From positions 434,001 to 498,000 of the forward strand of contig BMZV01000001.1 of assembly GCA_014652975.1 (NCBI GenBank): a stretch of 64,000 nt of DNA, read 5' to 3'. This document shows, piece after piece, positions 37,295 to 39,774 of the stretch. Below the pieces are notes generated by a model that worked only from the letters and a program-made list of their open reading frames with translations, was not told the DNA's origin and did no database searches. The position numbers and the translations under genes were made by a program. This DNA comes from Kocuria marina (GTDB lineage Bacteria > Actinomycetota > Actinomycetes > Actinomycetales > Micrococcaceae). The stretch's first letter is position 1; each line of letters begins with the position of its first letter.

Positions 37295-38041
37295 TCAGGT
37301 CAGGTGGGGGTACCGCTCGTCGTCCAGCTCGGGATGCACGAGGCCCCACTGGATGCCCGAGATCAGCACCTGGACCCGATCCCGCACCGCGAGTTTCTCG
37401 CACAGATGGGACACGTAGGCCTTCACACTGCCGTGCGAGACGGACATGCGCTCGGCGATCTCATTGTTGTTGAGCCCCTTGGCGATCCACTCGAGCGTTT
37501 CGAGTTCGCGCGGCGAGAGCTTGGGCGCGTCCGGGTGGGGTCCCCGGGATGCGGGTTCGACGGCGCCGGCCGCCGCCGCGCGCAGGTGACCGCGGCGCAC
37601 GGAGGGCACCGGGACGTCCCCCAACACGTTGTTGGCCAGCGAGCTGGCCACGGACGGGGACAGCGCGAGTTCGTCCTCGCGGATCAGGCTCACGGCGGAG
37701 ACGATCTCGTCGTGCCGGGCGTCCTTGACGAGGTACCCGGAGGCTCCCGCGCGCAGAGCGGGGACCACGTACTCGAGGGTCGAGAACGTGGTCAGCGCGA
37801 GCACCTTGGTTTCCGGGCAGCGCTGCACGATCTCCCCGGTGGCCTCGATCCCGTCCATCCCCGGCATACGGATGTCCATGAGCACCACGTCAGGGCGCAG
37901 TTCCAGGCACGTGGCCACGGCCTTCGCGCCGTCCGAGGCCTCCCCCGCGACCTCGAAACCCGGCTCCGCGCGGAACAGGTTCGCGAGGGCGTCACGCATG
38001 AGCGGATGATCGTCCACCAAGAGAAGCCTGCACAAATCCAT
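37295..38041 (-). CDS. NarL/LuxR-type response regulator
   Basis: 248 residues from ATG 38041. The receiver domain has Asp10-Asp11, the phosphorylated Asp56 in VLMDIRMPGMDG, a switch Thr in LALTTFS and the Lys in YLVKDA. A linker of about 40 residues joins it to the GerE-type HTH (LSPRELETLEWIAKGLNNNEIAERMSVSHGSVKAYVSHL split over 177-215). It is the partner of the divergent kinase. Only 22 bases separate its start from that of the peptide gene. Confidence 0.92.
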   Translation of the reverse strand: MDLCRLLLVDDHPLMRDALANLFRAEPGFEVAGEASDGAKAVATCLELRPDVVLMDIRMPGMDGIEATGEIVQRCPETKVLALTTFSTLEYVVPALRAGASGYLVKDARHDEIVSAVSLIREDELALSPSVASSLANNVLGDVPVPSVRRGHLRAAAAGAVEPASRGPHPDAPKLSPRELETLEWIAKGLNNNEIAERMSVSHGSVKAYVSHLCEKLAVRDRVQVLISGIQWGLVHPELDDERYPHLT

Positions 38042-38063
38042 GGCCTGATCATAAACTGAGCGC
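38042..38063. promoter_or_regulatory. Overlapping divergent promoters, probably leaderless on both sides
   Basis: On plus, TAAACT (38052-38057) ends six bases before the peptide ATG. On minus, TATGAT (38053-38048) ends six bases before the regulator ATG. Both fit an actinobacterial -10 with transcription starting at the start codon, and neither gene has room for a ribosome site. The two -10 elements share bases, so the promoters must compete. Confidence 0.55.
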
Positions 38064-38258
38064 ATGACTGAGCACTCGTCCCCCGTGACCACCACCACTT
38101 CGACCCGCACACGCTGGGTGCGCACCGCCACCGCGGCCCTGCTGAGCGGAGCCCTCATCCTCAGCGCGGCGCCGGCGCACGCCGCGTCCCCCACAGTCCC
38201 GCGCGGCCCCACGAACGTGATCTGCCACTACTGGCCCGTTCTCTGCCCCAACCGGTGA
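38064..38258 (+). CDS. Small secreted peptide with two cysteines, coupled to a sensor kinase
   Basis: 64 residues. Residues 1-20 are polar with Arg, 21-40 form a hydrophobic signal core ending SAAPAHA, and cleavage is expected after Ala40. The mature part would be 24 residues, Pro-rich, with Cys54 and Cys61 framing HYWPVL and a basic end (PNR). A disulfide would give an eight-residue ring. The last codon overlaps the GTG of the histidine kinase gene (GTGA), so the two are cotranslated. I do not recognise the family. It could be an exported signal sensed by the kinase, or an accessory envelope peptide. Confidence 0.7.
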   Translation: MTEHSSPVTTTTSTRTRWVRTATAALLSGALILSAAPAHAASPTVPRGPTNVICHYWPVLCPNR

Positions 38259-39439
38259 TCCCGGGGGGTACTGCTATCGGGGTGGACCCCGCCCCTCGAT
38301 CCGGCGGTATGCCGAGCTGGCTGCGTGTCGTCGTGGTGCTCTTCGCCGCGGTGGCACTGCTCGACGACCTGCGGTCCATGCCGTGGTCGTTCATGCCCCC
38401 GGCACCCGCCGTGCTCTCGAGCAGTTTCCTGGTCCTGAGCTACGGGGCCGTGGCGCTGCTCGCATGGTCGCCCCTCGCGAGCGCCGTGGCCATCACGCTG
38501 TCGTACGTGTTGGCCACGGTCTTGCACGACTACGCCCTGGCCCTGTTGTGCGGGTGCGTCGTGATGGTCGCGGTGCTCGCGATGCTCTCCCGCGGGACCG
38601 CGCTGGCCCACCTCGCGGTCACCGCCACGTGGATAGTCGTGTCCGCGGGGGTGCTGCGCAATTCCGATTTCGTGTGGACCGTGGGCATCCCCCTGGGTGT
38701 GTCCGCGCTGATCGGTGCGGCCGTGCGGTTCTTCGTGACCCAGTACCGGCTCAACACCCGCCGCCTCGCGGTTCTGGAGGTCACCCACCAGCGGCTGCGG
38801 GAGCAGGAACGGCTCGCCCTGGCCCGGGACCTGCACGACGTGGTCGCGCACGAACTGACCCTCGTGACCATGCAGGCTGCGGGGTCCCACCGGCAGCAGG
38901 ACCCCAGGGAACTGCACCGCACGATCGACATGATGGACTCCGCCGCCCGCTCCGGGCTGCATGAGCTGCGCACGCTGCTGCACATCCTGCGGGACTCCCC
39001 CGGCGCCCCGGACGAGCGGGACAGCAGTTCCGGGCTCACCACGGGGTCCCTGTACGGCGTGGCCCGGGCACTCGCGGCGAGCCTCGAACGCGCCGCACTC
39101 GTGCCGGAGCTCGAACTGGGTGACGGCCTGGACGAGATCCCCACGTCCATCCGCGGCACCGCGGCCCGGGTGCTGCAGGAGGCCTCGACCAACATGATCA
39201 AGTACGCGCCCACGGGTTCCCGGTGCGCCCTGCGGGTGTTCGTCCGGGACGGCGCCGTGCACGTCCACGCCGAGAACCAGATCCGCCGGGGTGCCGGCAC
39301 CGACTCCGGGCGCAGGGAACTGACCTCCGCGTTCGGGCTGCGCGGCATCCAGGAACGGGTCGCCCTGCTCAACGGTCAGGTGGAGTACGGTCCGCGCAAT
39401 GCCGTGTGGCACCTGGACGTGCGGATCCCGGTCGCGTGA
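38255..39439 (+). CDS. HisKA_3-type sensor histidine kinase
   Basis: 394 residues from GTG 38255. Residues 20-165 hold about five or six membrane segments with very short loops and no large extracellular domain. The dimerisation helix ERLALARDLHDVVAHELT places the phospho-His at 194. The ATPase domain has an N box (LQEASTNMIKYAP) and a late G box (GLRGIQERV), but the usual DxGxG is replaced by AENQI. It is paired with the divergent response regulator. The next gene overlaps its stop (GTGA). Confidence 0.9.
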   Translation: MIPGGTAIGVDPAPRSGGMPSWLRVVVVLFAAVALLDDLRSMPWSFMPPAPAVLSSSFLVLSYGAVALLAWSPLASAVAITLSYVLATVLHDYALALLCGCVVMVAVLAMLSRGTALAHLAVTATWIVVSAGVLRNSDFVWTVGIPLGVSALIGAAVRFFVTQYRLNTRRLAVLEVTHQRLREQERLALARDLHDVVAHELTLVTMQAAGSHRQQDPRELHRTIDMMDSAARSGLHELRTLLHILRDSPGAPDERDSSSGLTTGSLYGVARALAASLERAALVPELELGDGLDEIPTSIRGTAARVLQEASTNMIKYAPTGSRCALRVFVRDGAVHVHAENQIRRGAGTDSGRRELTSAFGLRGIQERVALLNGQVEYGPRNAVWHLDVRIPVA

Positions 39440-39774
39440 GTGACACCCCGGACGCCCCGAGGACCGGGACGGACGCGGTCGAGGCCGTGCGCGGCGTCGT
39501 CGTCGCGATCCCACCGGGCGCGGTGCTCAGCTACGGGGACGTGGCGGAACTCGCGTGGTTGAGCACCCCGCGGCTCGCGGCGCGGATCATGGCCATGGGC
39601 CTGGCCGGGACGGACGTCCCGTGGTGGCGTGTGGTGCGCGCGGACGGCACGCTGCCCGACCACCTGCAGATCACTGCGCGGGAACACTACGAACGCGAGG
39701 GCACGCCCCTGCGCGAGACCGACGCCCATTGGGTCCGCGTGGATATGCGCACCGGGCGCTGGGACGGCCGGTGA
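39436..39774 (+). CDS. Alkyltransferase-like protein (MGMT C-terminal domain, no active-site Cys)
   Basis: 112 residues from GTG 39436. The fold matches the DNA-binding domain of O6-alkylguanine transferase (IPPGAVLSYGDVAELAW, PRLAARIMAMGL), but the PCHR motif is PWWRVV, with Trp in place of the reactive Cys. Such ATL proteins bind alkylated guanine and hand it to nucleotide excision repair. GTGA overlap links it to the kinase gene, although the functions seem unrelated. Confidence 0.88.
   Translation: MSDTPDAPRTGTDAVEAVRGVVVAIPPGAVLSYGDVAELAWLSTPRLAARIMAMGLAGTDVPWWRVVRADGTLPDHLQITAREHYEREGTPLRETDAHWVRVDMRTGRWDGR

Follow-up and report, generated by a model that had tools for sequence, protein, structure and literature searches.

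What does a small gene for a secreted two-cysteine peptide do when it stands directly ahead of the gene for a sensor histidine kinase? This question is raised by a locus of Kocuria marina, which was analysed within a window of 64 kb (positions 434001-498000 of a contig in a 2.79-Mb genome; coordinates below are those of the window). The peptide gene (38064-38258, + strand) encodes a precursor of 64 aa. It is followed by the kinase gene (38255-39439, +), and a response regulator gene (37295-38041, -) is divergent from both. A sequence-only reading had described this arrangement, together with a signal peptide, a 24-residue mature part, a polytopic kinase with scant outer loops and an altered DxGxG box, and had suggested an actinobacterial peptide-sensing or envelope-stress unit, with the agr-type units of Firmicutes as the known parallel. 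The described features were all recovered, including the overlap of 4 nt between the peptide stop codon (TGA, 38256-38258) and the kinase start codon (GTG, 38255). The peptide gene is coding and conserved, and it is linked to and co-inherited with a single group of HisKA_3 kinases and a regulator of the NarL type. We regard it as rather probable, judging from the sequences, that the peptide leaves the cell by Sec, is closed by a disulfide and acts as ligand of its own kinase, the three genes forming a self-contained signalling unit.

The precursor has a charged n-region, a hydrophobic core and an AHA site before residue 41. Residues 1-40 (38064-38183, +; sequence and a simple signal test) form a predicted Sec signal peptide, and the predicted mature part of 24 residues reads ASPTVPRGPTNVICHYWPVLCPNR. 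Here C54 and C61 enclose HYWPVL in an eight-residue Cys loop (38223-38246, +), which is supported by the alignment of 19 orthologues and by the family loop consensus given below. Between the peptide gene and its counterpart in the nearest relative (genome G010, kinase 94% identical) there are 8.5 synonymous and 3.5 nonsynonymous changes, with nonsynonymous (dN) and synonymous (dS) rates of 0.026 and 0.179; in the two shifted frames the corresponding counts are 1 and 11. The open reading frame (ORF) is coding and under purifying selection. A chance ORF is excluded by this dN/dS test, by the presence of the peptide at 29 of 30 loci of the genus and by a background of 1 in 48 at generic kinases; as a measure of the ORF-scan background, three other ORFs in the window pass the same scan. 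The window peptide belongs to no Pfam family at E<=0.1 and to no NCBIfam family at E<=1. None of the other peptides compared (five in Pfam, three in NCBIfam) reached the cut-off, the best weak match having an E of 0.04. A second peptide copy in the same genome was considered and rejected, as the one examined of several weak matches in that genome lies antisense to another ORF. Near-identical plasmid copies of one Micrococcaceae module were sought in PLSDB by blastn and gave no match.

Within Kocuria, a kinase search of 27 genomes at E<=1e-20 yielded 30 loci in 24 genomes, which were scanned for ORFs of 30-130 aa that pass the simple Sec test and have a C-x(4-7)-C motif no more than 6 residues from their C terminus. 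Such an ORF adjoins 29 of these 30 related kinases. Nineteen loci, that of the window included, are close orthologues with kinases 38-100% identical to the one in the window. The sequence-only reading had proposed to look beside orthologous kinases for an upstream peptide and a conserved Cys pair, and both were found at all 19. In the 19 aligned orthologous peptides (18 distinct) P37 in the signal region, P49, C54, P58 and C61 are invariant. At 10 of the 11 distant kinases of the genus a different peptide of the same plan is present, with loops such as CQYYGRC, CKLLRSC, CSFLFLRWC and CGGWYFWC. The sole locus of the genus without a peptide is L055, where a wider fetch (L277) shows none either. 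Six of the 27 genomes (G002, G003, G012, G014, G017 and G021) carry two units with different loop peptides.

Beyond the genus, a 30-kinase profile was run on overlapping genome sets (149 from Micrococcaceae, 248 at order level, 296 at class level) and on two other families (47 and 81 genomes), and an additional contig search with kinase patterns supplied its best 80 matches (L102-L181). The hit rates cover 68 Micrococcaceae loci, a part of the kinase places in the 149 genomes, with L083 represented by L276, a wider stretch around the same kinase. A peptide adjoins 37 of the 38 Micrococcaceae kinases at E<=1e-70 (8/9 below 1e-100, 15/15 to 1e-75, 14/14 to 1e-70). Between 1e-70 and 1e-65 it is found at 7/9, the two misses (L252, L253) carrying a C-x9-C peptide, and in the next weaker bins at 3/7, 1/7 and 1/7. 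Four further Micrococcaceae loci stand outside the 68, one with a peptide (L183) and three without (L182, L185, L188); when they are added the rates become 8/11 (1e-70 to 1e-65) and 3/9 (1e-65 to 1e-60). For L182, L185, L188 and L186 the flanks span only about 1.5 kb, so peptides there may be missed; at L186, too, none was found in the flanks examined.

Among generic HisKA_3 kinases of the order and class (L190-L237, E about 1e-57 to 2e-49) a single one of 48 has a matching ORF nearby (L196), which was judged to be chance. The best 80 matches of the contig search comprise L102-L117, mostly Kocuria already counted, with a peptide at 16/16, and L118-L181 with a candidate at 3/64 (L149, L169, L181). 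Of these three only L149 looks real; it comes from Glutamicibacter uratoxydans, has the loop FWCAQLGWWC and a peptide gene divergent from the kinase gene. Outside the Micrococcaceae the pair is present in Raineyella antarctica (L111, loop CYYLPWLC), at all four kinases found at E<=1e-52 in family f3 (L184, L281, L282, L283) and at L187 in family f11 (CDLIPELC), where the only other kinase at E<=1e-52, L280, lacks a convincing peptide. A divergent candidate peptide with CFVAPWTC stands at L189 (family f13). On this comparison of sequences the peptide/kinase pairs are a family in Actinobacteria and not an accident of a single genome.

The loops of this family follow the consensus C-x-x-hydrophobic-[G/P]-x-x-C. 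Six residues separate the cysteines in 56 of 82 distinct C-termini, ring position 5 of these six-residue loops being Gly in 29/56 and Pro in 22/56, and the tail beyond the second Cys has 0-5 residues in 80/82; the raw counts retain four C-termini (from L079, L093, L100 and L258) that look like chance. In one Micrococcaceae group with 20 aligned peptides, Pro24 in the signal region, Gly42, Cys52, Gly56 and Cys59 are invariant. The association was also found in the reverse direction. When a profile of these 20 peptides was run on the 149 Micrococcaceae genomes, all 28 matches at E<1e-4 lay beside a profile-found kinase, and no orphan peptide was found at this cut-off. Twenty of the 28 were members of the profile, the other eight coming from G081, G096, G106, G119, G127, G138, G175 and G186. 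Fifty further matches between 2e-4 and 0.01 are mostly partial and cover mainly the signal region; at least two of them (G146, G162) adjoin kinases of the same group.

The gene order varies around the pair. After correction, the peptide gene lies upstream on the same strand as the kinase gene at 65 of 72 peptide-linked loci, downstream on the same strand at three (L081, L084, L116) and upstream on the other strand at four. The correction concerns L079 and L258, which were initially scored on chance ORFs; the real peptide of L079 is encoded upstream on the kinase strand, that of L258 upstream and divergently. In L276 the kinase gene is followed by the regulator gene and then by the peptide gene. 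Peptide and kinase are thus kept together in three different gene orders, and the retention of the pair through rearrangement argues for a functional link. Divergent kinase and peptide units were seen at L251, L254, L258 and L189, and L251 and L254 have the loop CLILNRC in common.

The kinase of the window matches HisKA_3 in Pfam above the cut-off (E 8e-14) and HATPase_c below it (E 0.027). Hydropathy averaged over the 19 orthologous kinases gives six hydrophobic segments with short loops, three of which would lie outside given an inner N terminus. Among solved kinases DesK is the closest by profile (E 4e-19). Like the window kinase, DesK is a polytopic HisKA_3 kinase, and its regulator DesR is of the NarL type; we know of no peptide partner of DesK. 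The two differ in the G1 box, where the aligned Asp of DDG in DesK is Asn in the window kinase and in the peptide-linked family, a change that presumably resembles the G1 box of HPK10 kinases. The window unit thus carries the features that define the family: its peptide combines a signal sequence with C-x(4-9)-C at the C-terminal end, and the neighbouring kinase has Asn in place of the G1 Asp. The same genome has five HisKA_3 kinases, and inspection by eye found no small Cys-bearing ORF with a signal peptide near the other four.

Co-inheritance was followed in a quick tree of 119 selected kinases, 72 with a peptide, that of the window included, and 47 without (L196 and L280 were labelled as lacking one by hand). 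The peptide label changes 14 times in this tree, compared with a mean of 37.1 in shuffles, and 0/500 shuffles were as low. A clade of 24 peptide-free kinases has a support of 99. The peptide-linked kinases do not form one clade, and peptide-free rows are interspersed among them, which implies losses or repeated gains. At the G1 Asp position the 72 peptide-linked kinases have 67 Asn, 4 Ser and 1 Thr, and the peptide-free clade has 22 Asp and 2 Asn. For a comparison of distances 96 loci were entered and 23 skipped, five of them because the script failed to recognise the kinase, leaving 73 pairs. Peptide distances correlate with those of the membrane domain (Mantel r 0.738) and of the catalytic part (r 0.752), and the membrane-domain value was reached in 0/999 permutations.

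How could such a unit work? The precursor would be exported by Sec, and signal peptidase would release the 24-residue peptide, in which a disulfide between the two cysteines may close a hydrophobic ring of eight residues; the genome contains two VKOR genes. The ring could bind the short outer loops or the membrane helices of the adjacent kinase, in the same or a neighbouring cell, and shift its kinase/phosphatase balance, upon which the regulator would change transcription, possibly including that from the shared divergent promoter. The circuit would resemble ComX-ComP-ComA, the ComQ modification being replaced by export through Sec and closure by a disulfide. We infer Sec cleavage, disulfide closure, kinase binding and quorum or self sensing from the sequences, and on these grounds the window peptide is probably a cell-to-cell signal. 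For the wider proposal of a three-gene actinobacterial pheromone system, in which Sec-exported disulfide rings of the form C-x-x-hydrophobic-[G/P]-x-x-C are each read by their own HisKA_3 kinase, we see an even chance. If it holds, Kocuria, other Micrococcaceae and some further actinobacteria possess one or several private channels per genome, and there is a class of peptide quorum sensing without a dedicated processing enzyme, in which general secretion and disulfide closure alone suffice to make a peptide pheromone. For dozens of genomes the family suggests a definite candidate as signal, receptor and regulator, and the sequences lend themselves to synthesis and testing.

Several observations weigh against this reading. 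Asn at the G1 position also occurs in 14 of the other 23 peptide-free kinases (Ser 4, Asp 2, gap 3) and therefore marks a wider kinase group and not the peptide. The partial correlations are 0.31 for the catalytic part and 0.24 for the membrane domain, so that the membrane domain is not singled out, and what we claim is co-inheritance and not a co-evolution of ligand and receptor beyond common descent. A peptide is not recognisable at many related kinases, among them the 13 that were re-examined (L055, L182, L185, L186, L188, L255, L257, L259, L261-L264, L268), and this kinase type can therefore function without one. Inspection by eye of 13 loci showed no consistent linkage to an exporter, a protease or a target gene. 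Finally, we know of no class of disulfide-ring pheromones read by kinases. As a separate observation, nine of the re-examined loci (L055, L255, L257, L259, L261-L264, L268) belong to the same wider kinase group with no recognisable peptide nearby and could reveal a peptide-independent role.

Units of peptide, kinase and regulator are known as a kind; the family, its ring code, export route and hosts appear to be new. In the open-licence literature (titles and abstract starts, without preprints and most subscription journals) no such peptide family was found among the matches listed. Nor is one shown in the passages considered of two articles that deal with actinobacterial LuxR regulators and quorum sensing (PMC4748050, PMC9659744). 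The unit shares with agr a small hydrophobic ring peptide, proposed as the ligand of a kinase with about six transmembrane segments. However, agr combines AgrB, a HATPase_c_5/HPK10 kinase, a LytTR regulator and a thiolactone, and here a HisKA_3 kinase and a GerE regulator go with a probable disulfide. Membership in agr was rejected, since PF04647 (AgrB) has 0 matches in the genome and the proteins are a HisKA_3/HATPase_c kinase and a Response_reg/GerE regulator. The core of the sequence-only reading, a conserved actinobacterial peptide-kinase-regulator unit with a Sec-type signal, is strongly supported by comparative genomics; its remark on the missing AgrB-like gene extends to the whole genome. 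Six transmembrane segments are also given for the pheromone receptor ComD in PMC4873836, and the kinase group of the window has six hydrophobic segments.

By analogy, ComX-ComP-ComA of Bacillus is the nearer working analogue than agr. In comX-comP, as here, the gene of the peptide precursor stands beside that of the kinase. The window kinase is of the HisKA_3 class and its regulator of the NarL/GerE type (Pfam), and ComP-ComA are assigned to the NarL class in PMC8895600. According to the same source, bacilli have the complete Com(XQPASK) pathway and clostridia the greater part of it, and ComP-ComA occur in deinococci as well. In contrast, the present units have a Sec-type signal and a Cys loop, a regulator that is usually divergent, and actinobacterial hosts. 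In ComQXPA an isoprenyl transferase, ComQ, goes with a prenylated Trp on the mature peptide. No ComQ-like gene was seen among the window neighbours or, by eye, at 13 other loci, and no genome-wide ComQ search was made.

The main rival is a subunit of the MgrB kind, which we consider unlikely, but less so than the other two alternatives. The peptide would then stay in the membrane of its own cell and inhibit or tune the kinase stoichiometrically, its Cys pair reporting the redox state outside, and there would be no cell-to-cell signal. MgrB-PhoQ is, by analogy, the best model for such a non-diffusing alternative. MgrB is likewise a small exported protein acting on a sensor kinase; it is bitopic, with two essential periplasmic cysteines and a Cys loop near the PhoQ linker, as described in PMC10576120. 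Co-inheritance of peptide and kinase agrees with this explanation, and so does translational coupling, which fits a stoichiometric partner: with the chosen kinase starts, the junction of peptide stop and kinase start in clade A is a 4-nt overlap in 7/12 loci, a 7-nt overlap in 4/12 and a gap in 1/12. However, MgrB is membrane-anchored, and the peptides carry AxA-type sites, which suggest cleavage rather than an anchor, with an invariant Pro in that region in both the 19- and the 20-peptide alignment. The linker that joins signal and loop is long and variable in many peptides, as fits a released precursor, and at 7/72 loci the peptide gene is not upstream on the kinase strand. No sequence relation to MgrB was seen, the window peptide having no Pfam match at E<=0.1. 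The mgrB gene is usually unlinked to phoQ.

An improbable explanation is that the cell secretes the peptide as an effector with antimicrobial or surface activity, under the control of a two-component system whose kinase senses another cue, for example envelope damage. Secreted small Cys peptides can be antimicrobial, and ABC-type genes follow the kinase gene at two loci (L241, L243; by eye). Yet no consistent linkage to an immunity gene or an exporter was seen (13 loci), the loop is short and strongly diversified, and the peptide gene lies mostly between regulator and kinase genes, as expected for a signal component. That the ORF is a regulatory leader whose translation merely sets kinase expression, with an incidental product, accords with the 4-nt overlap at the kinase start in the window and six other clade-A loci but is very improbable, given purifying selection on the amino acids, the invariant P/C/P/C and the retention of the peptide at loci where its gene follows the kinase gene or is encoded on the other strand.

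Signalling by the peptide through its kinase, the reading we prefer, would act through the regulator, a NarL/FixJ-type protein with Response_reg and GerE domains in Pfam, whose counterparts at the remaining 18 close orthologous loci are 55-99% identical along the part that matches. Its start codon and that of the peptide gene, both ATG, are separated by a spacer of 22 bp (38042-38063), a putative bidirectional promoter region according to sequence and comparison. It contains the -10-like elements TAAACT (38052-38057, +) and TATGAT (38053-38048, -), each 6 nt before its ATG, and the divergent transcripts would therefore be leaderless both ways. The motif GATCATAA[A/G]CT in the start-to-start spacer is kept in 12/12 clade-A loci (L032-L043, the window locus counted). 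In clade B (L044-L050) AGGAG stands 6-7 nt ahead of the peptide start in 7/7. The gap between regulator and peptide genes in this clade also has conserved direct repeats, TTCGACAAAAGTC and CTGGACAAAGGTC, spaced by about 22 bp, together with TTGGCAAA. As candidate binding sites of the regulator these repeats suggest autoregulation.

The neighbours of the unit in the window are genes for a GntR regulator, an L-lactate permease and an alkyltransferase-like protein (Pfam). The last of these (39436-39774, +), which has an MGMT DNA-binding domain, starts with a 4-nt overlap on the kinase stop as well, follows the kinase gene in 19/19 close orthologous loci (Pfam, tblastn) and is probably its operon partner. 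This would place a DNA-damage-type protein in a sensor operon. Other neighbours were noted by eye at more distant loci. At L241 and L243 (Micrococcaceae) genes resembling the ATPase and permease of ATP-binding cassette (ABC) transporters come after the kinase gene as possible regulon members, and at L116 and L276, where the peptide gene is downstream of the kinase gene, the unit adjoins a gene that resembles proline/hydroxyproline racemase.

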